This document shows positions 12,932 to 59,278 of a DNA stretch of 64,000 bases, in pieces. Source of the DNA: an uncultured Bacteroidota bacterium. GTDB lineage: Bacteria; Bacteroidota; Bacteroidia; Flavobacteriales; Flavobacteriaceae. The notes under the pieces are model-generated. The model ran no database searches. It was given only the letters and a program-made list of their open reading frames with translations, and was not told where the DNA came from. The stretch covers positions 94,501 to 158,500 of the forward strand of contig CACMJT010000001.1 in NCBI GenBank assembly GCA_902614065.1, given 5' to 3'. The first letter of the stretch is position 1, and every line of letters begins with the position of its first letter. The position numbers and the translations under genes were made by a program.

Positions 12932-14070
12932 TATTTTTCAAAAATTAAGCTAGTACTCTCATTGATAAGCGATTTTTTTATAGCATATAAAGATTGTTTA
13001 GGATTACCATTTTGATCATATAGACTAAGAATATTTTTAGGGTAATCACCAGGTCCTTTTCGATCGAACAAACCCCAAATATTTAGAGTAACAACACCAT
13101 TATTTTTTTTTGATATTAATGTGTTAACTACATTATTATATGAAATAACCTGTCTTTTTTGAACTGATATAGATTTTGGATTTTCATTATTTAACCAATA
13201 ATTAAGTTCGGTAACATGGAATTCCATTGAATTGGCATGTGTCCAATCTATTAAGTATGATAAATAATTCAAGTCCTCCTTAACCAAACCCACACCATTT
13301 TTATCACGTAAATGGGCCTGCCATCCAACTCCATCTACTCTTAATCCCAGATTTTTTAAATATGTGATTGTTTCAAGTACTTTTTCCCACATTTTTCTCT
13401 CCATTCCACCATTATGATTATACACCAACTTTACATTTGGTGCATATTTATTAGCTATTTCGAAAGCTTTTATAATGTAAATTGGAAAACCATCATCATT
13501 CAAACCAATTTGAGTCCATGGATTTTCCCAACTAGAATCACCCGGTTTTTCCTTGAACCACTCACCATTCCTAAGTACGGTTTCATTTACAACATCCATC
13601 CATTTCACAGTTTTTTCATCATTTAATCTTATACATAGCTCTGTAAAAAATTCTTCCATATTTTTAAGTAACTCTTCCTTGGTTCTATTATCATTTTTGG
13701 CCCACTTCGATGCTTGTGGACTTACAGGTCCATGAACCCTAAGTGTTAAATTATTTTTTTCTGCAAAATCTATAAAATCATCATATTTTTTCCAATTCCA
13801 AACACCGGGTCTTGGGTGTATTGCTGTTTGTTTAAATGAATTTGCAGGTGTCAAGTATGTAAATTCACTCAAAAAAAGTTGAGTAATATTGGGTCTCAAA
13901 AGATCACCGTGTCCAATTGTAGCTCCAACAAAAAAAGATTTAGAATCGTATTCTTTATCAATTAAAATATTTTTAATCGAATTTTTAGTTTGAGTAAAAA
14001 TTAGATTACTTAACAATATAAAAACTATTACACGCAAATTCAGAACACTATAGGTGAGAAAAATATGCAT
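12931..14070 (-). CDS. GH10 endo-1,4-beta-xylanase, secreted
   Basis: A compact GH10 enzyme (379 residues) without accessory domains. Acid/base E163 lies in MDVVNET and nucleophile E288 in HVTELNY; WQAHLRD forms part of the substrate cleft. The first hydrophobic stretch, VIVFILLSNLIF, is followed by TQ and looks like a Sec signal without a lipobox, so it is probably periplasmic or released. The ATG overlaps the symporter gene by 31 bp. A TTG at 14035-14037, just after the symporter stop, would give a more typical short signal peptide and is a credible alternative start. Confidence 0.92.
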   Translation of the reverse strand: MHIFLTYSVLNLRVIVFILLSNLIFTQTKNSIKNILIDKEYDSKSFFVGATIGHGDLLRPNITQLFLSEFTYLTPANSFKQTAIHPRPGVWNWKKYDDFIDFAEKNNLTLRVHGPVSPQASKWAKNDNRTKEELLKNMEEFFTELCIRLNDEKTVKWMDVVNETVLRNGEWFKEKPGDSSWENPWTQIGLNDDGFPIYIIKAFEIANKYAPNVKLVYNHNGGMERKMWEKVLETITYLKNLGLRVDGVGWQAHLRDKNGVGLVKEDLNYLSYLIDWTHANSMEFHVTELNYWLNNENPKSISVQKRQVISYNNVVNTLISKKNNGVVTLNIWGLFDRKGPGDYPKNILSLYDQNGNPKQSLYAIKKSLINESTSLIFEK

Positions 14071-15728
14071 ATTCCTATAACTATCAGAACTAAAACGAAT
14101 GAAAGTACAATATCAATATTCGAATAATCCTTTTGTTTATTATTTTTTAAATGCGCTGGGATCGTTCCAAAAGATAGACCTTTTATTCTCTCGTAATCAG
14201 GTTCTGCTGTCATCAAGGTAACTGTTATACATAATGCTACTGAAAAAGCAAACATCCAAATTGCCATGTAAGAAAAGTTAATAGTGGCGAATAAAAATAA
14301 AAACCCTTCAACTTCGGATCCAGAGGCAATCTCAGGTTGATAATAAATTTCGGAACCGAGTCTGAGGATTAATAAAAACAATCCAGCAAATAGTGTTACA
14401 ATTGAAGCCTGAGCATTAACTCTTTTCCAAATTATACCGAGTAAAAACACTGTTGTAACTGGTGGTGCTATATAAGCTTGAACATTTTGTAAATACTGAT
14501 ACATAACTCCACCACCAATTTTTTCCATAATTGGAATCCACAAAATACCAAGACCAACAATAACAACAGTTGCTACTTTTCCAACATTTACTAAAAATTT
14601 TTCTGATTTATTTGGGCTAATTTTTTTATAAATATCGATTGTAAATATCGTTGAGCATGAGTTAAATACAGATGCCAAAGAACTCATTAATGCAGCCATC
14701 AAACCACCTGCTACTAAACCTTTTAGTCCAACAGGTAATAAGGTAGTAACAAGCATTGGAAAGGCCCTATCAGCCTTCTGAACACCATTTACGTCCATAA
14801 CATTAAAAACTTCAGGGTTTTGAATTGTTAGTGCAAAAGCAATGATACCTGGAACTAAAAAAATCAAAATTGGGAGTAGTTTTAAGTAAGCTCCAAAAAT
14901 TGCCCCTCTCCTACCAATAGTAATATTGTTGGCAGCTAAGGTTCTTTGAACTATGTATTGGTCAGTACACCAATACCAAATTCCAACAATAGTACCACCA
15001 AACAATAGTCCAGCCCATGGAAAATCAGGATCATCCCATGGTCTCCACATATTGAAGTGTTCAGGGCTAACCTGAGTTACTGTTTCAGTTAATTGAGTCC
15101 ATCCACCAACTTCTTGAAATCCTAGATAGGTAATAATAACAGAGCCCATAATAAGAACTACAGTTTGTAATGTTTCAGTATATACAACAGCTCTCAAGCC
15201 TCCCAAAATGGTATACGCTCCTGTAAAAATGACAATGCCAATTGCACCAACCCAAAAATCTATATTTAATAACTCTGAAACAACGATACCACCAGCATAT
15301 ATCGTGACAGATACCTTGGTTAAAACATATGCAAAAAGTGAAAATACAGATAAAAACCATCTAGACCTACTGTCAAATCTTTTTTCAAGGAATTCTGGCA
15401 TTGTAAAAGCACCACTCCTTATGTAAAATGGGAGAAAAAGCCATCCTAGCAACAGAACTATCCAAGCATGTAATTCGTAGTGAGCAAGTGGTGTCCCTGA
15501 TGAAAAACCAGTACCGGCAAGGCCAACTACATGCTCGGAGCCTATATTGGAGGCAAAAATAGATGCACCTATTACAAACCAACCAACATTTCTTCCAGCG
15601 AGAAAATAGTCCTCTGTATTTTTATTTTTTTGTAGTGCAACCCAAACAGCAACACCAACTAAAATTGCGAAATATAAACCCAAGACTACCCAGTCAAGGC
15701 TTTCGAAAATTGTTTTAGTCTCTTCCAT
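14040..15728 (-). CDS. SSS-family sodium:solute symporter, probably for xylose or xylo-oligosaccharide
   Basis: Inner-membrane symporter of 562 residues with about 13-14 helices. TEDYFLAGRNVGWF and the following IFASNIGSEHVVGLAGTG are hallmarks of the SGLT-like branch of the solute:sodium symporter family. It lies between xylA and the GH10 genes, 6 bp from xylA, so xylose or short xylosides are the likely cargo. Specificity is inferred from position. Confidence 0.88.
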   Translation of the reverse strand: MEETKTIFESLDWVVLGLYFAILVGVAVWVALQKNKNTEDYFLAGRNVGWFVIGASIFASNIGSEHVVGLAGTGFSSGTPLAHYELHAWIVLLLGWLFLPFYIRSGAFTMPEFLEKRFDSRSRWFLSVFSLFAYVLTKVSVTIYAGGIVVSELLNIDFWVGAIGIVIFTGAYTILGGLRAVVYTETLQTVVLIMGSVIITYLGFQEVGGWTQLTETVTQVSPEHFNMWRPWDDPDFPWAGLLFGGTIVGIWYWCTDQYIVQRTLAANNITIGRRGAIFGAYLKLLPILIFLVPGIIAFALTIQNPEVFNVMDVNGVQKADRAFPMLVTTLLPVGLKGLVAGGLMAALMSSLASVFNSCSTIFTIDIYKKISPNKSEKFLVNVGKVATVVIVGLGILWIPIMEKIGGGVMYQYLQNVQAYIAPPVTTVFLLGIIWKRVNAQASIVTLFAGLFLLILRLGSEIYYQPEIASGSEVEGFLFLFATINFSYMAIWMFAFSVALCITVTLMTAEPDYERIKGLSFGTIPAHLKNNKQKDYSNIDIVLSFVLVLIVIGICIFFSPIVF

Positions 15729-15734
15729 TAATAT

Positions 15735-17063
15735 TTATTTTATGTAGTTAAACAATATGTTTTCAATTAATTCTTGCTTTGCACTAGTAAGTTTTAACTT
15801 ACCATTTTCTTTAGCCAGTTCATATAAATCTTCCAAAACTAACTTACCATCCTCGAAACTTTTTCCTTTACCTATATCAAAGCTTTTATATCTAGTTCTT
15901 AACATCTCAGGAAGTGGTGAATTTTTTAGTAAGTTATCTGCTATAATTAAAGCTCTAGCAAAAGTATCTGCTCCTCCAATGTGGGCAATAAATAAATCTT
16001 CCAGGTCCGTAGAATTTCTACGCAGTTTAGCATCAAAGTTTACACCACCACCTTTGAGACCTCCCGCCTTTAAAAAAACAAGCATAGCCTCAGTTGTTTC
16101 TTGAATATTTATTGGAAACTGATCTGTATCCCAACCATTTTGATAGTCACCTCTGTTGGCATCTATACTTCCAAGCATTCCAGATTTAGCTGCAACTGTT
16201 AATTCATGTTGAAATGTATGTTGAGCTAAAGTAGCATGGTTAACCTCAATATTAATTTTAAAATCTTTTTCTAAACCATACTCTTTTAAAAAACCAATTG
16301 ATGTTGCAGTATCAAAATCATATTGATGTTTAGATGGTTCCATAGGCTTAGGTTCAATGAAAAAAGTACCTTTAAATCCTTTAGATCTAGCATAATCACG
16401 ACACATTTTTAAAAATTGAGCCATATGATCTAATTCCCTGCTCATGTCTGTATTTAACAATGACATATATCCTTCGCGACCTCCCCAAAAAACATAATTT
16501 TCACCATCTAATGCAATAGTAGCATCCAGAGCTAATTTAACTTGTGCTCCTGCTCTTGCAACAACATCAAAATCAGGGTTGGTAGCAGCACCATTCATAT
16601 AATGTGGGTTTGAAAAACAATTGGCAGTTCCCCAAAGTAGTTTTATTCCTGAATTTTTCTTTTTCTCTTTAATATAATCGGTAATAAAATTTAATCTCTC
16701 CTCGGATTCTGACAATGTATCTGCCTCTTGAATCAAATCATAATCGTGAAAACAAAAATAATCAAACCCCATCTTTGAAATAAACTCAAATGCTGCATCA
16801 GCTTTGTCTTTTGCAGCTTGTAAAGGGTCTTTCGATTGATCCCAAGGAAAGATTTGGGTTCCAGCCCCAAAAGGATCTGCTCCCACTCCACAGAAAGAAT
16901 GCCAATATGCAACAGCAAATTTAAAATGTTCTCTTAAGGTTTTTCCTGCTACAACTAATTCTGGATTGTAATATTTGAATGCCAAAGGGTTGTCTGAATC
17001 TGGACCCTCATAATTAATTTTACCTACACCTTTAAAAAATTCTTTGTCACCTATTAATGCCAT
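15735..17063 (-). CDS. xylA: Xylose isomerase
   Basis: Converts D-xylose to D-xylulose in the cytoplasm. The 442 residues fit class II xylose isomerases. Visible signatures are [10 protein letters not shown] (catalytic histidine, about residue 100), the metal-site [17 protein letters not shown] (about 232-248) and [14 protein letters not shown] (about 270). It lies 2 bases downstream of xylB in the same transcript. Confidence 0.97.
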
Positions 17064-17065
17064 AA

Positions 17066-18547
17066 TTATTTATCGATTAGTTTTTTTAAGTTAATTTTCC
17101 ACGTTTCATAAGCATCTCTATATTGTTGCTTTTTTTGAGAGGGTACATAGCTCTTAATATAGTCATTATTAGAGATATTTTTTGTAAATGATTCAAAATT
17201 ATTTTGATCTAAGCTGGCAACCCTTGCAGCACCGTAAGCGCCAGTCACATCATGAATTTCAATTTCTTTGTCAAGCAGTGTAGAAATAGTATTTGAAAAA
17301 ATTTCGGATCTAAAAAGATTATCATTTCCCGACCTGAGTAATTTAGGTTGAAAATTATCATTCATTAAGATTTCCATTCCATAAACAAAGGAAAAAGCAA
17401 TACCCTCCAAACTTGATCTACATATATGATTTGAATTATGAATATTTAAATTAAGATTTTTAATATGAGTACCGATATCTTTATTTTCAAAAATTCTTTC
17501 AGCTCCATTGCCAAACGGATATGTAAGTAAATTGTTAGAACCGATATCAACTTTCCCTGCTCTTTCATTCATCTTATTGTAAGAGGACGAACCGATCAAA
17601 TTTTTAATCCATTTGTACTGTATACCTGCTCCGTTGATGCATAACAATTTACCCACAATTTTGTTGTGTTCTGAGTAATTTACATGGGCAAAATTGTTAA
17701 TTCTCAGTGATTCTTTTGACTTTAATTGATCTGTTAGTGCATACAAAACCCCTGATGTTCCACCTGTGGCTGCAACCTCTCCAACATTTAAAACATTTAA
17801 TGCTACAGCATTATTTGGTTGATCGCCAGATCTATACTTTACAGGAATACCGATAGGTAAGCCTGTTTTTTCAGATGCTAATTTTGTTACATATCCTTGG
17901 TCTTTAAAGTTTTCAACAATATTTGGCGTAAGTGATGAGTCAATTTGGTAATAGTTTAATAACCAATCTGCTGTACAATTTTCTTTAAAATCCCAAAACA
18001 TGCCCTCAGATAATCCTGTAACAGTCGAGTTAACCTCACCAGTTAATTTAAAATTAAGGAAATCTCCAGGTAACATAAATTTATATATCCTGTCATATAT
18101 TTCGGGTTCATTATTTTTTACCCACGCAAGTTTTGATGCAGTAAAGTTCCCAGGTGAATTTAATAAGTTAGAGCAACATTTTTCCTCCCCAATTTCTTTA
18201 AATGCTTTATTCCCAATTTCAACAGCTCTACCATCACACCATATTATTGAATTGCGTAAACAATTTCCATCTTCATCAACAATTACTAGTCCGTGCATTT
18301 GATACGAAATACCAATTCCAGTAATTTGATTATTTCTGATTCCAGACTCAGCTATGATTCTTTTTGTGCCAATACAAATTAATTCCCACCAATAATTTGG
18401 GTCCTGCTCTGCCCATCCATTCTTTTTTGAGATAATACTCATCTCAGAGCTAGGCTCTTGAATAAGTTTTACTTTTTCACCAGATTCGGATTTAGTTAAA
18501 GCTATTTTAAGAGATGAGCTTCCTAAATCGTATCCAATATTATACAT
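17066..18547 (-). CDS. xylB: Xylulokinase
   Basis: FGGY-family sugar kinase phosphorylating D-xylulose to xylulose 5-phosphate for the pentose phosphate pathway. The 493 residues start [10 protein letters not shown] (ATP-phosphate binding). They include SYQMHGLV (about residue 82), as in xylulokinases, the catalytic-base region RSGDQPNN (about residue 240) and [10 protein letters not shown] in the second actin-like domain. It sits next to xylA and directly follows the GH43 gene. Confidence 0.93.
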
Positions 18548-18555
18548 TTTAAAAT

Positions 18556-19605
18556 TTAATTCTTAAGAGGAAAAATTTCCTGAATAGACCCATCCTTGTT
18601 ATGGTACATCTCTGTAAATTTGACATTTCTCAAATGGTCCTTTCCAGAAATCTGGGTGTCATGATAAAACAAATACCATTGATCACCAACTTTTAAGGTT
18701 GAATGGTGATTTGTCCAACCATCAACAGGGTTGTTAATAATACCTTGATAAACAAATGGTCCATAAGGATTATCGCTTGTGGCATAAACAATTAAATGAG
18801 TATTTCCTGTGCTGTAACTTAAATAATAAATTCCATCTTTTTTATGAACCCATGCAGCTTCAAAAAATCTTCTTGCATGATCCTTAGTAAGTATAGGATT
18901 GCCATTTTTATCAATAATTCTTACGGGTTTTGGATCCTCAGCAAAACTGATCATATCATTTGACATTTTTGCTATTCTTGGTGATATTGCTGGACCGTCT
19001 GGAATACCACTGTCCTGAAGTTCATTACCACACTCTCCCGGGGTATATTGGTTGTCCTCATCCCATCTTTGTAATTGTCCTCCCCAAATACCTCCAAAAT
19101 ACATGTAATATGACCCGTCATCATCTTTAAAAACACTTGGATCCATGCTATAACTTCCTTCGATAGGATTATTCTCTGCTTTGAAAGGACCTTCTGGTTT
19201 ATCTGAAACAGCAGCACCTATTTTAAAAATATCATCTTTATCCTTTGTAGGAAAATACAGATAAAACTTGCCATCTTTTTCTGCAGCATCAGGAGCCCAA
19301 AATTGTCGCTTTGCCCATTGTACATCATCTAAGTCAAGTGCAACATCATGGATTGTAACTGGTCCTCCAATATAATTCATTGATAACACTCTATAATCTC
19401 TCATTGCGTACTTTCCACCACAATCATCAACAGGTGGATTCTCAACTACAATATCGTGTGATGGATATACATATATTTTTCCATTGAAAATATGGGCAGA
19501 CGGGTCAGCTGTAAAAATTTCAGTGACCAATGGATCATTAAGAAATTTATTTTGTGCAAAACTAAAACTAGTAGTTAAAAATATTATAAGAATTATTTTT
19601 TTCAT
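18556..19605 (-). CDS. GH43 family glycosidase (beta-xylosidase or alpha-arabinofuranosidase)
   Basis: Secreted five-bladed propeller glycosidase of 349 residues with a Sec signal ending SFAQ. The three GH43 acidic residues are visible: D34 in TADPSAHIF (base), D155 in SMDPSVF (pKa modulator) and E249 in RFFEAAW (acid). It presumably trims xylo-oligosaccharides, or arabinose side chains, in the periplasm. The family alone does not say which. It overlaps the sulfatase gene by 4 bp. Confidence 0.92.
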
Positions 19606-21101
19606 TTAATAACAATTGATTCATTAGTAATTTTTCTCATATCAAGGAGCTTTTCGGAATATTTTTCTACAACATCTTTATACCTCGGTTCTTTCGAGAT
19701 ATCTATAGATTGTAGTTTATCAGTTCTCATATCAAACAACATTTTAGCTACAACCCTTTCATTAGAATCTGGAGATGGCGTGTTATTTCCATTTCTGTCT
19801 TTATAATATTTATCATAAGCCATTATCTCGTGGTATGAATAATCTAAATCTTGAACAACTTCTCTCATTTGATATCTGCTATATATTTCAGATTTAAATT
19901 TTTGAGATGGGTCTTTCAATATGGGTACAAGGCTCTCACCATGAATATAATCTGGGGGCTCTATACCTGCTAATTCACTCAAAGTGGGATAGATGTCAAC
20001 ATATTCAACTAACGCATCTGTTTTTTCATTTTTTGTCATGTTCGGTGCTGAGATGATTAACGGAACATGAATTGCCTCTTGAAATGTATGGTGCTTACAC
20101 CAAAAACCATGTTCTCCCAAGAAGAAACCATGATCACTCCAAAATACTATGGTTGTGTTATCTCTAAGACCTAAATCATCCAAAGATTTGATTAATTTGC
20201 CCACCAATGCATCCAGATAACTAACGCTTGCATAATAACTTTTTATTAATTCTTTTTCAGTTTCTAGCGAGACAGGTCCTTTTTTTGGGATATCCAAATA
20301 TCCATTCCTTAATTCTTCCCAGTTATGAAAAGCCCTATTGTGTGCATTTCTGGGAATAGTTTTTTCTCTTGATATAGTCAAATCACTATCATTGTACATT
20401 TCTCCATATTTCTTTGGTTGAATAAAAGGCAAATGTGGAGAGACATAACCAACCGCAAGAAAGAAAGGATCCTGTGAATCTTTAAAATTGCCAAGTGTTT
20501 TAATAGCAAAATCCGTCAATTTACCATCAGTATATGCATCATCTTCAACATCAGCGTACTCCCAGGCAGGTCCAATGTAATTATTAGGTTGGTTAGGATT
20601 ACTTTCTTTTCTCTTTTCAATCATTCTAAGAGTTTTTTTACTCTGATAATCCCTTTGCTCTCTAAAATTCCTGTAAATATCCCACTCATCAAAATTATCT
20701 CTCCATTCATGATAAATTTTTCCGATTGATGCAGTGGTGTAACCATTTTGCTTGAAAAGTTTTGCTAATGTAATTGCTTTGGGTAAATCTTCATCAGCTC
20801 TTGTATAGTACTTAACGAATCTTGATTTACTACCTCTAACACCAGTTAAAATACTTGCTCTACTAGCACCACATACAGCGATATTGGTATATGCTTGATT
20901 GAATTGAACACCCTCTGACGCAAGTTTATCAAGATTTGGTGTTTTCATTTGAGGATATCCATATGAATTAATTAGCGGCCGCATATCGTCAACACCAATA
21001 AACAAAACATTTTGTTTCTTTTGAGAGACCAATGTCGTAGATACGAAAAATGATATCAAAATGAATATTGACTGTTTAAGATTTAGTAAATTTTTACTCA
21101 T
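19602..21101 (-). CDS. Type I sulfatase, iduronate-2-sulfatase-like
   Basis: Secreted arylsulfatase-fold hydrolase of 499 residues with a Sec signal. The formylglycine motif is CGASRASILTG, with C77 as the residue to be modified. The calcium site is GVDDMRP (about residue 36) and FWSDHGFFLGEHGFW lies near residue 320. These fit the S1 family, closest in pattern to iduronate-2-sulfatase-like members. Placed in a xylan operon, it most plausibly removes sulfate esters from a sulfated xylan-type polysaccharide, but this is inference. It would need a formylglycine-generating enzyme or anSME, which I do not see here. Confidence 0.9.
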   Translation of the reverse strand: MSKNLLNLKQSIFILISFFVSTTLVSQKKQNVLFIGVDDMRPLINSYGYPQMKTPNLDKLASEGVQFNQAYTNIAVCGASRASILTGVRGSKSRFVKYYTRADEDLPKAITLAKLFKQNGYTTASIGKIYHEWRDNFDEWDIYRNFREQRDYQSKKTLRMIEKRKESNPNQPNNYIGPAWEYADVEDDAYTDGKLTDFAIKTLGNFKDSQDPFFLAVGYVSPHLPFIQPKKYGEMYNDSDLTISREKTIPRNAHNRAFHNWEELRNGYLDIPKKGPVSLETEKELIKSYYASVSYLDALVGKLIKSLDDLGLRDNTTIVFWSDHGFFLGEHGFWCKHHTFQEAIHVPLIISAPNMTKNEKTDALVEYVDIYPTLSELAGIEPPDYIHGESLVPILKDPSQKFKSEIYSRYQMREVVQDLDYSYHEIMAYDKYYKDRNGNNTPSPDSNERVVAKMLFDMRTDKLQSIDISKEPRYKDVVEKYSEKLLDMRKITNESIVIK

Positions 21102-21137
21102 TCGTTAGGTATTTTAATTAAAGATAAGGCTAGTTTA

Positions 21138-21169
21138 AAAAAAAAAGGAGGAAAAATCCTCCTTTTTTC
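21138..21169 (-). terminator. Rho-independent terminator or attenuator within the xylan locus
   Basis: A hairpin GGAGGA/TCCTCC with a 4-base loop, flanked by A and T tracts that extend the stem and supply a U run on both strands. It lies between the SusC-SusD-small protein set and the sulfatase-to-xylanase set. It probably limits read-through so that the transporter genes are expressed more than the enzymes. Confidence 0.75.
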
Positions 21170-21185
21170 TAAAGCTATAAATCAA

Positions 21186-21527
21186 TTATTGCCTCCGAGC
21201 CTCATTACCAGACTTTAAAAGAGCAACAGCTTTTTTGTTACCAAACTTTTTGGATAAAGTTTCTTTAATATTATTGTAACCTTTTCTGTAGACAACTTTT
21301 TTAGCCTCAGGGTCAGTTATACCCTGTTTCTTAATTTCAGCTGCGTTTGTAACAATTTGATTTAAGGTTGCATCGTAAAAAATCTTTTTATCTTTTTTAC
21401 TGAGAGAATGCTTGTCAGCAACGTAGTTTGTAATTTTTTCAGCATTCTTAATCTGATTTTTAGTTGGTTCTTGAGCAAGAATAAAAACCGGGATAATTAA
21501 AAAGATAAATAAAATTGTCTTATTCAT
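21186..21527 (-). CDS. Small secreted protein of unknown function in the xylan locus
   Basis: A 113-residue protein with a clear Sec signal (FIFLIIPVFILAQ) and a roughly 94-residue mature part that is Lys-rich and looks helical, without cysteines. I do not recognise a family. It lies 2 bases after susD and just before the terminator, so it is made together with the outer-membrane uptake complex. Its position suggests a periplasmic or surface accessory of xylan uptake. Confidence 0.75.
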   Translation of the reverse strand: MNKTILFIFLIIPVFILAQEPTKNQIKNAEKITNYVADKHSLSKKDKKIFYDATLNQIVTNAAEIKKQGITDPEAKKVVYRKGYNNIKETLSKKFGNKKAVALLKSGNEARRQ

Positions 21528-21529
21528 AA

Positions 21530-23125
21530 TTAATTAATTAACTCATTAGTATTAATTTCACTTAGTGGGATCTGAAGTTTCATGATTTCAGACTCATTTG
21601 TTGAAAACTTAACCTCACGATTCGCTTGATATTTCTGAGAACCAATCAATACTTTTTTACCAAAAGAATTGTTATGAGGTAAAACTGTGTGGTCCAAGAA
21701 ATACTGATAACCACGTCTTTTATTATGGAATGAATCCTCACCCTCTCCAATTAATTCAAACTGATACTCTTCCATGATAGCATCCCTAAATGAGCTTTGA
21801 CCTTGAGAATATTCAGCCCTTGGAGTTAAACCTGCTCTAGTTAAAACTGGCATTAAATAAGTCATTTCCTGACCATTACCAAGCTCATTGGATATCTCGG
21901 CAAGCATCAATAATAATTCTGCATATCTCATTGCTACAACATTTTGACTATTGTATTGGTTGCTATGAGTTCTATCTTTTTCAACCCATTTGAACAAATA
22001 TGGGTGAGAACTTCCCATACCACCTCTCCAAGGAGCAGATGGGTAGTTTCTTACGTTACCTGCAGGTGGAGTCCTATCGGCTCTGTAATACTGATGTAAG
22101 TAGGTGGCGTTATACCTTTTGTCAGGAAAACTAGAAATTAAAGTTGGTCCAGTCCAAGTCTGACCTCCACCATAAGCAGCAACATGCTTGTCGTGTTGAA
22201 AAGCAGTCACCTGGAACCAACCAAAGTGCATACCAGCTTTATATTTCCATGGTGTAAAGTTCCTTCCGATTTGTGAGTTTGCAGCATCTTGAGCAATTTG
22301 CAATTCAAAGACAGATTCGGTTGAATTTTCACCTTGAACTGTAAATAAACTTCCATAGTCGGCAACAAGTGAATATTCTCCACTGTTGTAAACCTTCATT
22401 GCTTCATTGTATGCAAGACCCCAATAGTCCATTGCACCGCCCATTGTTTGTATGTCAGTGTTAGTAGCTTTAGCCATGTAAACTTTAGCTAACAACATAC
22501 TAGCAGCGTGTTGTTTAGGGTAACCTGTGCCTCCATTACCATTCAATAATGTTTGTGCCATTTGTAAATCTGAAACAATTTGATCATAAACATCGGATGC
22601 TGGAGATTTAGCTTTATTGGTATTTCCCTCAGATGGAAGTTCCAACCACAATGGAATATCACCCCAATGAGTGGCTAGTTTAAAATATGCCCAAGCCCTT
22701 ACAAAATAGGCATGACCTGCAACATCGTTGAATGCTAGTTCATCAGTGTTACTAGGTGATGAAACAGTATTAATTGCTGCAATTGCCCCATTTGCTCTTG
22801 CTATGGCTTGATACAAACCTCCCCACATGAAGTCTGCGTCCATGTGATATCCTGGTTTAAGGGAGCAAAGGGTTGACATGTCTCTTGATGTAACTCTAGC
22901 CCCACCTTTTCTTGTAAACATAATTCCAGAATATAGGTTTTCAATAAATAATCTTCTTTCTTGAGTGTTGTAGCCTGTCAATGCCTGATAAATACCATCT
23001 CTTGCAGCTTCAGCACTTTGAACATCTTGATACAATGTTGCGTCTAGGAACGGTGGACTCTCATCCAAGTCACACGATACAAAAAATATCAATGGAAGAA
23101 TTAAAAAAAGTTTTATGTATTTCAT
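21530..23125 (-). CDS. SusD/RagB family surface glycan-binding lipoprotein
   Basis: Outer-membrane lipoprotein of 531 residues, with lipobox cysteine C18 in FFVSCDLDE. It contains the SusD-like N-terminal TPR segment (AYFVRAWAYFKLATHWGDIPL, about residue 140) and the C-terminal RYAELLLMLAEISNE region typical of RagB/SusD. It forms the lid of the SusC channel and captures oligosaccharides, here probably xylan fragments. The gene follows susC directly. Confidence 0.95.
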   Translation of the reverse strand: MKYIKLFLILPLIFFVSCDLDESPPFLDATLYQDVQSAEAARDGIYQALTGYNTQERRLFIENLYSGIMFTRKGGARVTSRDMSTLCSLKPGYHMDADFMWGGLYQAIARANGAIAAINTVSSPSNTDELAFNDVAGHAYFVRAWAYFKLATHWGDIPLWLELPSEGNTNKAKSPASDVYDQIVSDLQMAQTLLNGNGGTGYPKQHAASMLLAKVYMAKATNTDIQTMGGAMDYWGLAYNEAMKVYNSGEYSLVADYGSLFTVQGENSTESVFELQIAQDAANSQIGRNFTPWKYKAGMHFGWFQVTAFQHDKHVAAYGGGQTWTGPTLISSFPDKRYNATYLHQYYRADRTPPAGNVRNYPSAPWRGGMGSSHPYLFKWVEKDRTHSNQYNSQNVVAMRYAELLLMLAEISNELGNGQEMTYLMPVLTRAGLTPRAEYSQGQSSFRDAIMEEYQFELIGEGEDSFHNKRRGYQYFLDHTVLPHNNSFGKKVLIGSQKYQANREVKFSTNESEIMKLQIPLSEINTNELIN

Positions 23126-23144
23126 TTGTCTATAATTTATTTTA

Positions 23145-26100
23145 TTAAAAGTTTAAGTTAACACCAACAAGGACTGACCTTGAATTAGGTTTATTATTCC
23201 AATCTGTTCCTTGAAGTAATCCATCCCACAGGAACGTAGTAATTTCAGGGTCGTAGCCCGAGTAGTCTGTCCAAGTAAATAGATTTGATCCAGTAATATA
23301 CACGTTTGCTGCATCAATAAAGTTATTGTTACTCAATGGAATGTCATAGTTTAAAGTTATGCTCTTCAATCTTAGATAACTTCCATCCTCAATAACTCTG
23401 TCCATCAAAGCACCAAACAAGTTAGCTGAATAACCAAGTCTTGGATATGCAGCAGAGGTGTTATCAGGTGTCCACCTATCATACCAAGCATCAGCAAGAA
23501 TATTTCTGTAAGTACCTTCTGCCCATCCAAATCTGTAATAGTTTCCATTAACAATTTCATTTCCCTCAACACCATTAAATAATGCTCTCATTGAAAATCC
23601 TTTGTATGAGAGATTAACATTAAATCCATAAACATAATCAGGATTTGGATTTCCTATAACAGTTCTGTCAGCAAGGTCAACAACACCATCCCCATTTAAG
23701 TCTAAAACTTTTATATCACCAGGCTGAGACATAGATCCATTGATTGGATACATTGTATCTCCTGACTGAAACAATCCATCAGTCTTCCATCCATAAAATA
23801 ATGCAACTTCATGTCCTTCCATGAAGATGTTAATTGGGAATTTAATACTATTACCACGACTTGGTACATTTCCTAGATAAGATGCAATTTGTTGGTTTGC
23901 ATATCCACCCATTCCATCAGACATTAATATATCCCCTGGAACTAAGCCAAGATTTTCAATTTTAGATTTGTTGAAAGAAATGTTTCCACCAAAGGAGAGG
24001 TTAAAATCACCCTTATCAATTGCAGTAATATCTAATCCAATCTCTAATCCTTTGTTTTCAAGTCCACCTCTGTTAACTAACATGTTTGCAAAACCAGAGG
24101 ATGTTGGTATGGGAGATTGTTGTAGTAAATTTTTTGTATTTTTTTGATATACATCAACAACCCCAGTTATTTTTCCATTTGCAAATCCAAAATCAACACC
24201 GAAGTTAACCTGTTCAGTAGTTTCCCAAGTTAAATCTGGGTTTGCAATATTCGCTAGAACGATGGGTACAGTAGTACCATTAGATGTGTTTCCGTAAAGA
24301 GAAGAAGAAGCACCATAGTTGGGTAATGTTCCATATGGACCTATACCATGATTACCTATTTCACCCCAACCTGCTCTAAACTTAAGACTTGAAAATAAAT
24401 CTAAGTTTTGAACAAATTTTTCACTCCCAGCTCTCCAAGCAAAAGCAAATGATGGGAAAAATCCATATCTATTATCCTCAGAAAATTTAGAGACTCCATC
24501 TCTTCTAAAACTAGCTGTAAGTACATATTTATTTTTGAATGTATAATTTACCCTACCTAAAACTGAAAATAATTGTTGATCAGCAGCTCTCAGTAGCAAT
24601 GGTGAGGATACAATTTGACCTAAGAATGGTTGTTGAGTTCCAAGTTGAGCAGTTACAAAATCTTGAACAGCATAAACACTGCTTTCTACATCTCTCACAT
24701 CATATGTGACACCAAGAGCAGCATTAACCCTGTGATTTCTATTAATGTTTCTGTTGTATCTCAAAAAGTTGTTGACCTGGTAAGTTAGAGCATTCAATTT
24801 CATTTTTTGATACAATCCATTTGCATTTGCACCTTGCCATGTTGTTAGACCATAAAACCTAGTCCTATCCTTATCCCTAAGGTTACCACCAATCCTAAAC
24901 TCATACATTAATCCTGGTGTTCTTAATTTATATTTTAAAGCAAGAGAAGCAATAACTCTGTTTTCTCTTGACTCATCAGCAAAATCATTAACCCACGACA
25001 AAGGGTTTGATAGTTGTCCGTCATCGAAGAAACTTTCTTCATCAGTTCCATTAGATAAAACGGGATTGTATGAAACAGTCTGTTGAACAAAACTTTGATC
25101 ACCTCCAATTTTGTCACCACCCTCAGCAAAATCTGAATCACTAAAAAAAGTTGAAAATCTACCTTCAACCCTTAAACGATCACTTAAATCATAATTGATA
25201 TTTAATCTTATATCTGTTGTTTTGAATGAAGAGTTATCAATCAAACCATTTAAGTCATTAAAACCAGCAGATAAATAAAAATCTCCATTATCATTTCCAC
25301 CTGAAAAAGTAGCACCAAAGCTTGAGCTAACACCTTGTTGATAAACTTCATCTTGCCAGTTGTAAAGGGTTGCAGGAGTCGTATCTATATTATTTGATGG
25401 AGTTCCATCAGGATTTGATAAAAAAGAATAAACCGAGCCTCCATCGACAACGTATCTTGGGGTTTCACCTGCAGCAAGTCTAGTTGCATTTGAATAGTTA
25501 GCATATCCAGCACCATCAAGCATGTCATATGTTTTAGTTATTTCACTAATAGTTCTACTAAAAAATGTATTGAACTTACCACCTGGCTCATCTGAAGATC
25601 CACTTTTAGTTGTTATCAAAACAACCCCGTTAGCACCCCTTGAACCATAAATTGCTGTAGCTGATGCATCTTTTAAAATTTCAATTCTTTCAATGTCTCT
25701 TGGATTAATACCATTCAAACCACTTTGAGGGTCTTGCCCTGTATTTCCTTGACCGCTTCCATCAACAGATGCCACATCTTCAGCAGCAGATGAGATAATA
25801 ACACCATCAACGACATATAAGGGCTCATTATTTCCTCTTAAACTACTTGCGCCTCTAATTCTTACACTCACTCCTGAGTTAGGGTTGGCAGCATTCTGAG
25901 TCACTTGAACACCAGCTGCTCTACCTTGCAGAAGTTGATCCACTGTAGCAGCTTGCCTAGATACCTCGTCTTCAATTTTCACAGATGCAACAGAACCAGT
26001 AAGGTCTCTTTTTAATACAGTTCCATAACCAACTACAACAACCTCTTCAAGAGCTTCAGTATCAGGTTCTAACTGAACTGTAATTGTTGTTTGACTAGAA

Positions 26101-26348
26101 ACATCTACTTCTTGATTTGTATAACCTATGTAGGAAACAACAAGAACTTGGTCTCCATCTGATGGAATAGTAATTGAAAAATTACCATCAAAATCTGAGA
26201 TTGCCCCAATAGTATCTGAACCTTTTAATTGAACAGTTGCACCAGGAAGTGGTGAACCATTTTCGTCATTAATTGTACCGTTAATCGTTTTGGATTGTGC
26301 AAAAATGAAAAGCGGGAACAAAATAAAGACTAATAGAAATCTATTCAT
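23145..26348 (-). CDS. SusC/RagA family TonB-linked outer membrane receptor
   Basis: A TonB-dependent channel of 1067 residues. After the signal peptide there is a carboxypeptidase-D-like regulatory domain (about residues 20-95, TINGTINDENGSPLPGATV). Next come a TonB-box-like EEVVVVGYGT, the plug domain (LQGRAAGVQVTQ, VRIRGASSLRGNNEPLYVVD) and a beta-barrel ending in phenylalanine. It is the first gene of the xylan locus. About 230 bases separate it from tRNA-Arg, where the promoter must lie, though I see no good TAnnTTTG match. Confidence 0.96.
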   Translation of the reverse strand: MNRFLLVFILFPLFIFAQSKTINGTINDENGSPLPGATVQLKGSDTIGAISDFDGNFSITIPSDGDQVLVVSYIGYTNQEVDVSSQTTITVQLEPDTEALEEVVVVGYGTVLKRDLTGSVASVKIEDEVSRQAATVDQLLQGRAAGVQVTQNAANPNSGVSVRIRGASSLRGNNEPLYVVDGVIISSAAEDVASVDGSGQGNTGQDPQSGLNGINPRDIERIEILKDASATAIYGSRGANGVVLITTKSGSSDEPGGKFNTFFSRTISEITKTYDMLDGAGYANYSNATRLAAGETPRYVVDGGSVYSFLSNPDGTPSNNIDTTPATLYNWQDEVYQQGVSSSFGATFSGGNDNGDFYLSAGFNDLNGLIDNSSFKTTDIRLNINYDLSDRLRVEGRFSTFFSDSDFAEGGDKIGGDQSFVQQTVSYNPVLSNGTDEESFFDDGQLSNPLSWVNDFADESRENRVIASLALKYKLRTPGLMYEFRIGGNLRDKDRTRFYGLTTWQGANANGLYQKMKLNALTYQVNNFLRYNRNINRNHRVNAALGVTYDVRDVESSVYAVQDFVTAQLGTQQPFLGQIVSSPLLLRAADQQLFSVLGRVNYTFKNKYVLTASFRRDGVSKFSEDNRYGFFPSFAFAWRAGSEKFVQNLDLFSSLKFRAGWGEIGNHGIGPYGTLPNYGASSSLYGNTSNGTTVPIVLANIANPDLTWETTEQVNFGVDFGFANGKITGVVDVYQKNTKNLLQQSPIPTSSGFANMLVNRGGLENKGLEIGLDITAIDKGDFNLSFGGNISFNKSKIENLGLVPGDILMSDGMGGYANQQIASYLGNVPSRGNSIKFPINIFMEGHEVALFYGWKTDGLFQSGDTMYPINGSMSQPGDIKVLDLNGDGVVDLADRTVIGNPNPDYVYGFNVNLSYKGFSMRALFNGVEGNEIVNGNYYRFGWAEGTYRNILADAWYDRWTPDNTSAAYPRLGYSANLFGALMDRVIEDGSYLRLKSITLNYDIPLSNNNFIDAANVYITGSNLFTWTDYSGYDPEITTFLWDGLLQGTDWNNKPNSRSVLVGVNLNF

Positions 26349-53467: not shown

Positions 53468-54856
53468 ATGGGAAAAAAGTTTAGAGTTGAATCTGACACA
53501 CTTGGTGAAGTAAAAATTCCAGAAAATTCTCTCTGGGGACCACAAACTCAAAGATCAATAAATAATTTTAAAATTGGCCAGCCTGGTTCAATGCCCACGG
53601 AGATTATTCATTCATTTGCAATTTTAAAAAAATCATGTGCAATTTCAAATAATGAGTTGTCGAATCTTGAAAAAAAGAAGATGAAATTGATTATAGAAGT
53701 ATGTGATGAAATTTTAAAGAATAAGCATAATAAAGAATTTCCACTTGTCATTTGGCAAACTGGATCTGGAACTCAAACTAACATGAACGTCAATGAGGTC
53801 ATATCAAACAGAGCTAATATATTGTCGGGTAAATCACTTAATGATTCAAAATATATAAAAGCCAATGATGAGATAAATATGTCTCAATCCTCCAATGATA
53901 CATTTCCAACTGTTACTAATATTGCTGTAACAAAGCTCGTATATGAAAAACTGATACCGTCTACTGAGTCGTTTATTAAAATTCTTAATAAAAAGGTAAA
54001 GGAATTTAGCAAGGACATTAAAATTGGTAGAACCCATATGATGGATGCAACTCCAATAAGCTTAGGTCAAGAATTTTCTGGCTATGAATCACAAATGAAG
54101 CACGGCTTGAAAGCTTTGAAAAATACTTTAAAACACTTAAAAGAATTAGCCATTGGAGGCACAGCTGTAGGTACTGGACTTAATGCACCTGATGGATTTG
54201 ATGTTAGTGTGGTAAAAAATATTTCTGATTATACAAAAATCAATTTTGAGATTGCTGAAAATAAATTCGAAGCAATTGCATCTAATGATTCATTGGTTGA
54301 AACTCATGGAGCATTAAAACAAATCGCTGTTTCTCTTTTTAAAATTGCGAATGATATAAGACTTTTAGGAAGCGGACCAAGGTCCGGATTTTCAGAACTC
54401 ATTCTACCCGCAAATGAACCAGGAAGTTCGATCATGCCTGGAAAAGTTAATCCAACTCAATGTGAAGCTGTTTCTATGGTTTGTGCTCAGGTTCTTGGAA
54501 ACGACACAACTGTGAGTTTTGCAGGAAGTCAAGGTCACTTAGAGCTGAATGTCTATAAACCTGTTATTGCTCACAAACTAATTGAATCAATTCACTTGTT
54601 ATCTGATTCAATGGAGAGCTTTAATAAAAACTGCATAAGTGGATTAAAGGCAAACAAGACAAAAATTGCAGAACATCTCAACAACTCATTAATGCTTGTA
54701 ACAGCACTTAATAAAAAGATTGGTTACTACAGGGCTGCAGAGATCGCAAACAAGGCCCATGAAAATGGAACAACTCTTGAGGAAGAGGCAATAAAATCCG
54801 GGTATTTAACAAAGAAGCAATTTAAAGATTGGGTGAAGCCTGAAGATATGGTTTAA
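53468..54856 (+). CDS. fumC: Fumarate hydratase class II
   Basis: An iron-independent fumarase of 462 residues in the TCA cycle, hydrating fumarate to malate. TGSGTQTNMNVNEV (about residue 98), SQSSNDTFPT (about 138), GRTHMMDATP (about 186) and the signature GSSIMPGKVNPTQCE (about 318-332) are all present. It overlaps a small convergent gene by 4 bp. Confidence 0.96.
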   Translation: MGKKFRVESDTLGEVKIPENSLWGPQTQRSINNFKIGQPGSMPTEIIHSFAILKKSCAISNNELSNLEKKKMKLIIEVCDEILKNKHNKEFPLVIWQTGSGTQTNMNVNEVISNRANILSGKSLNDSKYIKANDEINMSQSSNDTFPTVTNIAVTKLVYEKLIPSTESFIKILNKKVKEFSKDIKIGRTHMMDATPISLGQEFSGYESQMKHGLKALKNTLKHLKELAIGGTAVGTGLNAPDGFDVSVVKNISDYTKINFEIAENKFEAIASNDSLVETHGALKQIAVSLFKIANDIRLLGSGPRSGFSELILPANEPGSSIMPGKVNPTQCEAVSMVCAQVLGNDTTVSFAGSQGHLELNVYKPVIAHKLIESIHLLSDSMESFNKNCISGLKANKTKIAEHLNNSLMLVTALNKKIGYYRAAEIANKAHENGTTLEEEAIKSGYLTKKQFKDWVKPEDMV

Positions 54857-55026
54857 ATCCTTCCTTTAAGAGCGTTGAAAGCCCAACCAATAGCAATAAA
54901 ACCAACACCAACAACTGAAAAACCAATTGCATAATCTGGATACTTTAATACGCCTAATAATATCAAAGCTATACCCAAAAGAGTTAGTATAAATGATGCC
55001 CATCCAAAAATAGAGTTCTTGTTCAT
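54853..55026 (-). CDS. Small two-helix membrane protein (57 residues), CAL67264-like
   Basis: A short gene starting MNKNSIFGWASFILTLLGIA, with two hydrophobic helices and the ending IAIGWAFNALKGRI. It resembles a family of tiny flavobacterial membrane proteins that I recall under the name CAL67264. It lies 6 bases after the CPBP protease gene and probably belongs to its operon. The function is unknown. Confidence 0.7.
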   Translation of the reverse strand: MNKNSIFGWASFILTLLGIALILLGVLKYPDYAIGFSVVGVGFIAIGWAFNALKGRI

Positions 55027-55032
55027 AAAAAA

Positions 55033-55950
55033 TTATTGTACCGATCCAAACAATTTTTCTCTCCAATTTACCCAATTGTATTTTTTAGAAAAATAAATAA
55101 GAATCAAAATTTGGAGAGGAATGGATGTGACAAACATCATTGACATATTTGGCTCGCCTACATATTTTAATACCGAATCAGTCTGCAGGACAGTCCAATC
55201 TGCTGTCATCAGTAAAATTCCAACAAAATTATTTCCATAATGCATTCCCAGAGCAAGTTCCAAACCATCATCCATTAGTGTACATACTCCCCAAACTAGT
55301 CCCATGATGAAATATGCACCTAGAAACCCATACCCCATCTTGTCAACTTCAGGATTGGCTAAATGCAAAAGTGCAAACAAAAAAGTAGGAATTAAAAGTG
55401 CAAGAAATCGACTTTTAGTTGTTATTCCTATTCCCTGCAGAAGATAGCCTCTTACAAGATACTCCTCGAAACTTGTTTGAAAAGGCAATAAAATAATAGC
55501 AATAAGTAAAAGATAAATAAAAGATTCAGGCTTAAAGTTAAACTCGTACATACTAGGATCATACAAATAAGCAACTAGCATACCAATTGAGTTGATAATT
55601 GCAATAACAAAAAATCCAGTAAATATTCTTTTAAAATCTATACTTTCACGTGATGTCGTCAATGATTTAATTGTTTGTTTGTGAATAACTTTAACAGTGA
55701 AAAAAATTCCTATTAAGCCAACTAAAAATGTTATACAAAAAAGTGCTAAGCCAACATTGTAGTTCGGAAAAGCATTTAAAAAGTTTGATTCGTTTAGGGT
55801 TTGCAATTGGTCTAAATCAGCGACCGAAAAAATACCAATCAATAATGGGATGGCACCCAAAAACTGCCAAAAAACAACAATTACCAAAGGACCAACAAGT
55901 AAATATCTCCACCACTCATTTTGTGTATTTTTTACGTTTTCAATGAACAT
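55033..55950 (-). CDS. CPBP family intramembrane glutamic protease
   Basis: A 305-residue membrane protein with about eight helices. The ABI/CPBP motifs are SFEEYLVRGYLL (catalytic EExxxR, about residue 162), FALLHLANPE (about 193) and HYGNNF (about 239). Related eukaryotic enzymes process prenylated proteins; bacterial targets are mostly unknown. Its ATG overlaps the stop of the PAS-MenA gene (TAATG). Confidence 0.85.
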   Translation of the reverse strand: MFIENVKNTQNEWWRYLLVGPLVIVVFWQFLGAIPLLIGIFSVADLDQLQTLNESNFLNAFPNYNVGLALFCITFLVGLIGIFFTVKVIHKQTIKSLTTSRESIDFKRIFTGFFVIAIINSIGMLVAYLYDPSMYEFNFKPESFIYLLLIAIILLPFQTSFEEYLVRGYLLQGIGITTKSRFLALLIPTFLFALLHLANPEVDKMGYGFLGAYFIMGLVWGVCTLMDDGLELALGMHYGNNFVGILLMTADWTVLQTDSVLKYVGEPNMSMMFVTSIPLQILILIYFSKKYNWVNWREKLFGSVQ

Positions 55951-57314
55951 TATATAAAAAATAGATTAAATACAACAACAGTGAACAAACCATAAAAAAT
56001 TTGGAGGTAAATAGTCTTGAGATTGGAGTGAATAAGTTCTCTTTTATCATAATTTTTGTACAAGTTAATGAAAGCAATTAACCCATAAGCGAAAAGTACA
56101 ATGTTCCCAATTATAAAAATGTTTTTATTAAATGAACTTATATTGTTTTCTAAATAAGGAATTAATAAGATTGAGGAAATAAAAGCTGTGCTTAATATAA
56201 ATAAATATCCCCAACGAGCGTTTTTCTTTCCAAAAGTTACAATTAAATGATTTTTACCAGTACTTGCATCACTGATTGTGTCAGGATATTGGTTTATGTA
56301 TAATATATTGGTAGTCAATAACCCATGAGGGATTCCTAGAAGTAATGCAATATAAAACCGATCAGAAAAAAGTTCAATTGTTGATGATGAAATTGCAAAT
56401 AAAGCTCCAAGAGTCATTAACGGTCCAAACGATAGGAATATAGCTAATTCACCCAAGCCTCTTCTTGATACCAATCTTAAAGGTCTAGCAGTATAAAAAT
56501 AACCTATTAACCCTCCTAAAAAGCCGACAACAAGTGCATAGATAGCATTTGAAAATTCACCCGTTACGTAAACACTATTAATAAATAAAATAGATGTTAC
56601 TAATACAGTTACAATCAACATTTTTCTTGCTAATGAAAGAGTTCCAATATGCGTGATTAGACCTAATTCTACTGCTCTACTACCTCCAGATAATTGAGCA
56701 CCCTCAAGCATTGTTGAATTCAAACCTGCATTAAAGTATTCGGTATTTGCGCCATCTGTGCCATCTTTTACATCATAATAATCATTAAATAGATTTGATG
56801 CGACGTGCAAAAAAACAATTCCAAGTGAACACAAGATCAAAGAAAGTGGATTAAAAAGATTATCCCCTGCACCAGCTAAAAAAGCTGCGACAGCAAAAAT
56901 TGGAAATAGTGATGCACTCGTAAAGCCACCTCTAGTTATTGCAAAAGCCCACTTTATAAAAATTGTTGAAAACTTGATCGGTATTTTTACTTCCTCTTCA
57001 ATTGGCACAGTAATACCACAATAACCAGTTTGAGGGTTATTTTTTCCATTAGCAAAGGTTGGAGTTATCTTAATTTGTGCATTGAACTTTTTACCTTTTT
57101 TATTAATGAAGTAAGTTTTGGTGGAATATTGACCTCTTTTATTTGCTTGGGACAACCACATACCAACATTTTGAATTACAATTTCACCTGCTGAAAACAG
57201 AGATACTCTTTTTTTTCCAACAAGTTCCTCTTTGGAGTAACCAAATAATTTTTCACCATCCGGGTTGATGGTTTCAATTACACCCTCCATATCACAAGTA
57301 ATGACACTTTTCAT
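55950..57314 (-). CDS. menA: PAS domain fused to a UbiA/MenA-type prenyltransferase
   Basis: A 454-residue fusion. Residues 1-105 are a PAS sensory domain (DMEGVIETINPDGEKLFGYS, then EELVGKK, then GYCGITVPI). Residues 115-454 are an integral-membrane UbiA prenyltransferase with NDYYDVKDGTD (N177-D187, Mg/prenyl-diphosphate site) and NQYPDTISDASTGK (about residue 340). The enzyme half is closest to MenA (1,4-dihydroxy-2-naphthoate prenyltransferase), making menaquinone at the inner membrane. The PAS part suggests redox or ligand control of quinone synthesis. It is followed by a CPBP protease gene with a one-base overlap. Confidence 0.8.
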   Translation of the reverse strand: MKSVITCDMEGVIETINPDGEKLFGYSKEELVGKKRVSLFSAGEIVIQNVGMWLSQANKRGQYSTKTYFINKKGKKFNAQIKITPTFANGKNNPQTGYCGITVPIEEEVKIPIKFSTIFIKWAFAITRGGFTSASLFPIFAVAAFLAGAGDNLFNPLSLILCSLGIVFLHVASNLFNDYYDVKDGTDGANTEYFNAGLNSTMLEGAQLSGGSRAVELGLITHIGTLSLARKMLIVTVLVTSILFINSVYVTGEFSNAIYALVVGFLGGLIGYFYTARPLRLVSRRGLGELAIFLSFGPLMTLGALFAISSSTIELFSDRFYIALLLGIPHGLLTTNILYINQYPDTISDASTGKNHLIVTFGKKNARWGYLFILSTAFISSILLIPYLENNISSFNKNIFIIGNIVLFAYGLIAFINLYKNYDKRELIHSNLKTIYLQIFYGLFTVVVFNLFFI

Positions 57315-57373: not shown

Positions 57374-59278
57374 TTATTTAACCTCCTCAAAATCTACATC
57401 CTGAACATCATCATCATCCTTTTTTGATGATTTTTTTTCAGCCTTTGAACTTGATTCATTTTTAGCTTGAGTTTCTGCTTGAGCTTTATAAAGTTCCTCT
57501 GAAGCATTTTTCCATGCCTCATTTATTTTTTCTAAATCTGACTTTATTTTCTCAACATCTTTAGATTCATGCGACTTTTTGAGAGCTTCTAAGGAATCTT
57601 CAATTGCCTTCTTTTTTTCATCAGGTAACTTATCACCATGTTCCTTAAGTTGAGATTCAGTTTGAAAAATCATTGCATCAGCACTGTTGACAGTGTCTGC
57701 ATCTTCTTTTAGCTTTTTATCAGATTCCGCGTTTGCTTCTGCCTCTTGTTTCATTTTTTCAATCTCATCCTCTGTCAAACCAGAAGATGCCTCAATTCTG
57801 ATGTCTTGTGATTTGTTAGTAGCCTTGTCAAGAGCAGTAACATGTATCAAACCATTTGCGTCAATGTCAAAGGTAACCTCAATTTGAGGAGTCCCTCTAG
57901 GCGCAGGTGGAATACCATCTAAATGGAATCTTCCTATTGTTTTATTATCTGTGGACATAGCCCTATCACCCTGTAATACGTGAATTTCAACAGAGGGTTG
58001 ATTATCAGCTGCAGTAGAGAAGATTTGTGATTTTTTTGCAGGAATAGTAGTATTTGATTCTATAAGTTTTGTCATAACTCCTCCCATTGTTTCAATTCCT
58101 AATGAAAGTGGAGTGACATCCAGAAGCAGAACATCCTTAACATCACCAGTAAGAACTCCACCTTGAATAGCTGCACCAACAGCTACTACCTCATCAGGAT
58201 TAACACCTTTAGATGGTTTTTTGCCAAAAAACTTTTCTACTTCATTTTGTATAACAGGTATTCTAGTTGAGCCTCCTACAAGTATGACTTCATCAATATC
58301 ACTTTTACCTAAAGATGCATCTTTCAATGCTTTTTTTACAGGCTCCATAGACCTTTTGACAAGTTCTGAGCTCAATTGCTCAAATTTTGCCCTAGTTAAT
58401 GTTTTTACTAAGTGTTTTGGGCCTGAATCAGTGGCTGTAATATATGGTAAATTAATTTCAGTTTGAGTAGATGAAGAAAGTTCTATTTTGGCTTTTTCAG
58501 CAGCTTCTTTGAGTCTTTGCAGTGCCATGGGATCTTTTCTCAAATCAACACCTTCATCTTCCTCATATTCAAATGCCATCCATTGAATTATTGCATCATC
58601 AAAATCATCACCACCAAGCCTTGTATCACCGTTTGTTGATAATACTTCGAAAACTCCATCTCCAAGCTCTAAAATAGAAATATCAAAAGTACCTCCACCC
58701 AAATCGTAAACTGCAATTTTTTGATCTTTACCGGACTTATCTAAACCATAGGCCAACGCCGCTGCCGTTGGTTCATTAATAATTCTTTGAACTTTTAAGC
58801 CAGAAATTTCACCAGCTTCTTTAGTAGCTTGTCTTTGTGCATCATTGAAATAAGCTGGAACAGTTACAACTGCTTCACTAACAGATGAGCCAAGATAATC
58901 CTCTGCAGTTTTTTTCATTTTTTGAAGAATCATAGCAGAAAGCTCTTGAGGTGTATATAATCTTCCGTCAATATCTACCCTTGAAGTATCATTATCTCCT
59001 TTGACTACTTTGTAGGGTGATCTTTTTGCATCGTCCTTTGACTCTGAAAATTTACTACCCATAAATCGTTTGATTGATGAAATTGTTTTAGTTGGGTTTG
59101 TAACAGCTTGTCTTTTGGCGGGATCACCTACTTTAATTTCACCTCCGTCAACAAATCCAATTACTGAAGGTGTTGTTCTCTTTCCCTCTGCATTAGGAAT
59201 TACTACAGGTTCATTCCCCTCCATCACAGAAACACATGAATTTGTTGTTCCTAAATCTATACCAATTATTTTACTCAT
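57374..59278 (-). CDS. dnaK: Chaperone DnaK (Hsp70)
   Basis: ATP-dependent chaperone of 634 residues. [16 protein letters not shown] (start), [15 protein letters not shown] (about residue 195), [13 protein letters not shown] (about 335) and the substrate-binding domain [13 protein letters not shown] are classical. The C-terminus is acidic, ending in [10 protein letters not shown]. No grpE or dnaJ is adjacent. A sigma-54-like site precedes it. Confidence 0.98.

Follow-up and report, generated by a model that had tools for sequence, protein, structure and literature searches.

A PAS-UbiA fusion protein in Flavobacteriaceae and its possible place in quinone synthesis

Does a marine flavobacterium control the synthesis of a quinone through a sensor built into the enzyme itself? 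The question is raised by one gene in the window, by which we mean the whole 64,000-nucleotide stretch analyzed here (positions 94,501 to 158,500 of contig CACMJT010000001.1, from the genome of an uncultured Flavobacteriaceae bacterium, G000). A first-pass annotation had read this gene as a PAS sensory domain joined to a MenA/UbiA prenyltransferase, which would link sensing directly to the making of menaquinone or another prenylated lipid.

The fusion gene, its predicted fold and its distribution

The gene (55950..57314, minus strand) is a single frame that starts with ATG, encodes 454 amino acids and contains no internal stops. Its product scores above the cut-offs for PAS_9 at residues 4-92 (30.2 bits; Pfam cut-off, 27), the PAS S-box (37.3 bits; NCBIfam cut-off, 22.9) and UbiA (68.8 bits; Pfam cut-off, 34.2). 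The PAS domain occupies residues 1-104 (57003..57314, minus strand), with invariant C7, Trp53 and C99, and the UbiA-superfamily prenyltransferase domain covers approximately residues 119-451 (55962..56960, minus strand), with the motifs NDxxD (177-181) and DxxxD (345-349). Across 38 homologues, the Asp-motif residues N174, D178/D181 and D345/D349 never vary where the sequence is complete. We built an AlphaFold (AF2) model of the fusion from 38 homologues. With a mean pLDDT of 83.8 (90.5 for PAS alone), it predicts strands and helices in the canonical PAS order over residues 3-104, followed by a linker and the UbiA helical bundle. Foldseek matched the PAS half to 3lyx, NifL, Aer and DosP, the closest structures being 3lyx and the redox PAS domains of NifL and Aer, and the UbiA half to 4tq4, 4od4 and UBIAD1. 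A profile match above the cut-off and a canonical fold identify the first part as a PAS domain; the Pfam match, the helical fold and the two Asp-rich motifs place the second in the UbiA superfamily. Two claims of the first-pass annotation have therefore held up: the uninterrupted PAS and UbiA frame with both Asp motifs, and the PAS fold in the N-terminal ~105 residues, which it had left open to refutation by a profile search.

The solved UbiA homologues (4tq4 from A. fulgidus, 4od4 from A. pernix, and UBIAD1) share the transmembrane fold and the Asp motifs with the fusion at about 15-20% identity; to our knowledge, none of these structures has a sensor domain. Prenyltransferase activity of the fusion is very likely, and a quinone-type product is likely. 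A promoter and terminator scan gave a result no better than that for shuffled sequence.

A local fusion or a sequencing error is ruled out, since the fusion is full length in 21 of 22 congeners and was returned at 49 loci by a GTDB genome scan. The sole miss among the congeners is a 56% complete genome; the genus genomes are 55-87% complete. The GTDB loci are 41-98% identical, nearly all full length, and come from Flavobacteriales, Saprospirales, Ignavibacteria and Kapabacteria. A homologue with the two parts as separate genes, which the annotation had named as the mark of a local event, was not found. In a sample of 346 genomes of the phylum, the fusion is present in 11, of which G000 is one; nine of the other fusions score above 620 bits, and that of G170 is split across two contigs. 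Viral carriage of the fusion was not found in IMG/VR. Two fusion loci (L059 and L081) lie on contigs titled Gammaproteobacteria and Bradyrhizobiaceae, and their sequence is of the Bacteroidota type. These records are probably mislabelled bins; in the tree, the Bradyrhizobiaceae-titled fusion nests among Kapabacteria-type sequences.

The best PAS-less UbiA in the 346-genome sample reached 141 bits. Some PAS-less UbiA matches (G101:C1:579331-579996, G131:C1:700647-701300 and G076:C4:58111-58740) lie in frames of ~455 amino acids, longer than a normal UbiA, which suggests another fusion partner. In a tree of the UbiA part, all fusions fall on one side of a single branch (SH-aLRT 90), apart from canonical MenA. 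A single fusion event would be enough to explain this tree. The PAS-UbiA fusion is an old, discrete family.

The PAS domain as a candidate redox sensor

Mean pairwise identity among the homologues is 0.69 in the PAS domain versus 0.55 in the UbiA part. Wherever the homologues are complete, C7, C99 and W53 do not vary. The two Cys, C7 on strand A and C99 on strand I, are the only ones conserved. In the PAS sheet, strands A and I are adjacent. W53 is located on helix F-alpha and aligns with the Trp of Aer. An F-alpha Trp has been described as the main FAD determinant in the PAS domains of NifL, MmoS and Aer (PMC10468136). The other two NifL/Aer determinants are replaced in the alignment, Asn by F69 and His by S41. 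FAD is thus a possible cofactor, with two of the three determinants absent. The fusion also differs from NifL and Aer in its output, a membrane enzyme rather than a kinase or chemoreceptor. Since the PAS domain has no conserved His (the window protein has none at all in this domain), a heme PAS of the FixL/DosP type is unlikely. We also saw no LOV signature: there is no conserved flavin-adduct Cys on the flavin-pocket helix, the conserved Cys being those of strands A and I. The heme or flavin pocket that the first-pass annotation had proposed looking for is thereby narrowed to a possible flavin.

Redox control of the enzyme through the PAS cysteines is our reasoned proposal. Quinones act on ArcB of E. 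coli by oxidising two cysteines of its PAS domain; EvgS, which requires ubiquinone, has regulatory PAS cysteines (PMC8174306). The PAS domains of these kinases are membrane-tied and cytoplasmic, with two functionally important Cys and quinone control (PMC8174306), and the Cys of the fusion PAS are likened to theirs by count, not by position in the fold. ArcB and EvgS are histidine kinases, whereas in the fusion the PAS adjoins an enzyme that may itself produce the quinone. The two kinases give the proposed mechanism a precedent and are not themselves evidence that the fusion uses it.

Could the domain be a structural or dimerisation module only, carrying no signal? Such a role would fit the finding that none of the known cofactor signatures is complete (it has no conserved His, F69 stands in place of Asn and S41 in place of the Aer His). 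We nevertheless consider it somewhat unlikely, since a mere scaffold would not be expected to be better conserved than the enzyme it adjoins, or to keep pocket-type residues and two Cys unchanged throughout.

Gene neighbours and the relation to MenA

Loci of the Flavobacteriaceae type have the gene order dnaK, thioesterase, fusion, CPBP, CAL67264 gene. In the window, dnaK (57374..59278, minus strand) lies 59 bases upstream of the fusion on the same strand, and it is the upstream neighbour in 28/28 Flavobacteriaceae-type loci. Downstream lies the gene for a CPBP/Rce1-like intramembrane protease of 305 amino acids (55033..55950, minus strand), identified by a score above the cut-off of Pfam PF02517 (Rce1-like); its EExxxR and two His motifs are readable in the sequence. 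The TAA stop of the fusion and the ATG of this gene overlap by one base (TAATG at 55950), as the first-pass annotation had noted, and of the Flavobacteriaceae-type loci, all 27 that extend far enough have CPBP after the fusion. The last gene (54853..55026, minus strand) encodes a 57-amino-acid membrane protein of the CAL67264 family (NCBIfam, 73.7 bits; cut-off, 50). This is a general Flavobacteria family. In L053 and L055 the gene is displaced, lying ~4 kb from the fusion, and it is probably a bystander. In f6, Saprospirales and Ignavibacteria/Kapabacteria loci we found neither CPBP, nor the CAL67264 gene, nor the thioesterase next to the fusion, and outside the Flavobacteriaceae type the fusion has no conserved pathway neighbours. 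The link to CPBP is therefore recent, and the three-gene unit that the annotation had singled out (fusion, CPBP and CAL67264) is rejected as a general system beyond close relatives.

A more telling neighbour than CPBP is a MenI-like thioesterase gene, found upstream in sister species. It lies between dnaK and the fusion, directly upstream of the latter, in 17 of the 28 Flavobacteriaceae-type loci; the window's subclade and L039, L040, L042, L049 and L059 lack it at this position. At about 107-116 bits on the MenI model (cut-off, 185), its product, a hotdog protein, does not qualify as a curated MenI. The identity is 52% with a thioesterase encoded next to menF-menD in G047 and 43% with that of the G409 men cluster. 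Elsewhere in the window (11516-26348) we read an apparent xylan/xylose utilisation cluster, with two GH10-like xylanases, a sodium/sugar-type transporter, xylose isomerase, xylulokinase, a GH43-like enzyme, a sulfatase and a SusC/SusD pair.

MenA is the best-scoring profile family for the UbiA part, but the fusion falls below every curated MenA cut-off. On TIGR00751 the window's fusion scores 58 bits and two distant homologues score 69-73 (cut-off, 102); on NF004751 the fusions score 78-128 bits versus a cut-off of 264. The positive controls (L153 and L162) pass, and the MenA proteins of related genomes pass the same or sister profiles. On our reading, the UbiA part belongs to the MenA-like branch of its superfamily and is a membrane aromatic prenyltransferase. 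With MenA (TIGR00751, NF004751) it shares the best-scoring subfamily, both Asp motifs, an adjoining MenI-like thioesterase in relatives, and UbiE in the genome; it differs in its separate clade, its PAS domain, a genus that lacks MenD, MenB and MqnC, and the canonical MenA that stands alongside it in G409. The Ubi-297/EboC prenyltransferases are likewise UbiA-like, outside MenA and present in marine Flavobacteria, but they are of ~299 amino acids, with no PAS reported, belong to an ebo cluster and have a DxxDxxxD motif (PMC9235831).

Each of 12 genus genomes contains at most one further UbiA, which is of the CtaB type; the copy that we examined in detail (L082) is a heme O synthase and adjoins cytochrome oxidase subunit III. 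The second, PAS-less menA that the annotation had proposed looking for is found neither in the window's genome nor in 11 congeners, and by its sequence the fusion is the sole quinone-type UbiA in these 12 genomes. In other lineages, it coexists with a complete men cluster that includes its own canonical menA (G409) or with a MenA-type gene beside UbiE (G085 and G144), so it has not simply replaced MenA. The simple replacement account is weakened by these genes and by the MenA-type gene beside UbiE in G158.

Missing menaquinone markers and the proposed role

The fusion is more interesting for the pathway genes that are absent than for its CPBP neighbour. In profile searches of 12 genus genomes, we did not find MenD, MenB or MqnC: menD matches reached only 56-67 bits, the level of acetolactate-synthase-like paralogues in menD-bearing relatives, menB matches were weak, and there were no mqnC matches. 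Fusion-free relatives, by comparison, gave 328-470 bits for menD or 425-470 bits for mqnC. Neither the men pathway (menD with menB) nor the futalosine pathway (mqnC) is thus detected in the genus, and the link to menaquinone synthesis drawn in the first-pass annotation stands in part: the ancient joining of a PAS domain to a UbiA enzyme is upheld, but since the fusion is not a curated MenA and its genus lacks these markers, menaquinone synthesis cannot be assumed.

The absence extends beyond the genus. Both menD and mqnC are missing from 32 of 36 fusion genomes and from 2 of 17 fusion-free genomes (Fisher P = 7e-8, for related, non-randomly chosen genomes and without phylogenetic correction). 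Duplicates had been merged before counting (G411=G154, G413=G193, G414=G085, G415=G296, G418=G288). The fusion genomes with a marker are G406, G407 and G410 (mqnC) and G409 (menD). Fifteen fusion-free genomes have one marker, and G158 and G101 have neither; because G158 lacks the fusion as well, the association is not exclusive. Within family f28, two fusion genomes lack mqnC and two fusion-free genomes have it. Both genes are also absent from non-streamlined fusion genomes of 2.2-3.3 Mb that are 99-100% complete.

UbiE exceeds its cut-off in 22 of 24 fusion genomes searched, G000 included, and we read from the sequence of G000 a complete ActA-F and CoxB/CtaD cluster (alternative complex III and cytochrome oxidase), which means that a quinol is needed. 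Upstream ring-forming genes of a fusion pathway were not identified. A homogentisate (plastoquinone-like) route was considered and rejected: HPPD is absent from 12/12 genus genomes although present in both f6 genomes, and homogentisate is therefore not a common precursor. The f38 genomes have UbiE and, in some, a MenA-type gene, while menD and mqnC were not found there. In the Kapabacteria-type f38 genomes G085, G144 and G158, the MenA-type gene adjoins ubiE (L153:9089-10683, L154:8931-9806 and L155:9363-10969). It looks as if two quinone systems coexist in some lineages and one was lost in others. A ZigA/CobW-type GTPase gene is found in the vicinity of ubiE in the window's genome (L148:7954-10189) and another adjoins the fusion in a Saprospirales bin (L068:3349-6266); the two GTPases are 65% identical.

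The reading that we prefer, and to which we give an even chance, is that the fusion is a redox-regulated prenyltransferase in an incompletely known quinone pathway. Computed directly were the fusion, its single origin, the catalytic motifs, the conservation of PAS, the absence of markers, UbiE with the respiratory complexes, and the thioesterase neighbour. In the proposed scheme, a MenI-type thioesterase would free an aromatic acid (DHNA or an analogue) from its CoA thioester, the fusion enzyme would add a polyprenyl tail to that acid, and UbiE would methylate the ring of the prenylated product. The resulting quinone would serve alternative complex III and a caa3-type oxidase. The permanent N-terminal cytoplasmic PAS would probably relay to the enzyme how oxidised or reduced the cell or the quinone pool is, most likely by way of the invariant C7/C99 pair on neighbouring strands and possibly through a flavin next to Trp53. 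The acceptor, product, signal and direction of control are what we infer.

Alternatively, the fusion could be a regulated MenA isozyme: it would prenylate ordinary DHNA, either scavenged or made by a route that the MenD and MqnC profiles miss, and yield normal menaquinone. MenA being the best profile family, the MenI-like thioesterase of the sister species, the retained UbiE and the MenD route present in the other Flavobacteriaceae sampled all agree with this. We regard it as unlikely, given scores below the MenA cut-offs, the canonical MenA in G409 and MenA-type genes in G085 and G144, and the lack of MenD and MqnC even in the nearly complete, larger fusion genomes. That the fusion makes a second, non-respiratory prenylated aromatic lipid (an antioxidant, signal or membrane component) while the genus imports its respiratory quinone is quite improbable: the joint presence of fusion and MenA in some genomes and the want of conserved pathway neighbours outside the Flavobacteriaceae type speak for it, but the fusion is kept near-universally in small genomes and is tied to absent menaquinone markers in several lineages, and we know of no case in which an entire genus depends on respiratory quinone from outside.

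To return to the redox-regulated prenyltransferase, its boldest form, which we hold as doubtful, would make the fusion the hallmark enzyme of an undescribed pathway to a respiratory quinone, shared by marine Flavobacteriales and Ignavibacteria/Kapabacteria relatives; the redox state of the quinone pool would control it directly, at the level of the protein, via the PAS cysteines. A 2026 survey of quinone pathways stressed lineages without a recognisable pathway and suggested that further quinones await discovery (PMC13386864). Our literature search, which omitted most subscription journals, found no description of a PAS-UbiA fusion and nothing relevant on menaquinone in Kapabacteria. As far as that search found, the fusion would be the first prenyltransferase with a built-in sensor, and it offers an opportunity to test whether quinone synthesis is under direct feedback. 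Since nearly all bacteria with the fusion lack the markers of either menaquinone pathway, it may mark an unrecognised, self-regulated quinone synthesis. It is a clear candidate gene for such a synthesis: it is conserved, encodes a quinone-type prenyltransferase and occurs in marine bacteria that respire and lack the known menaquinone marker genes.
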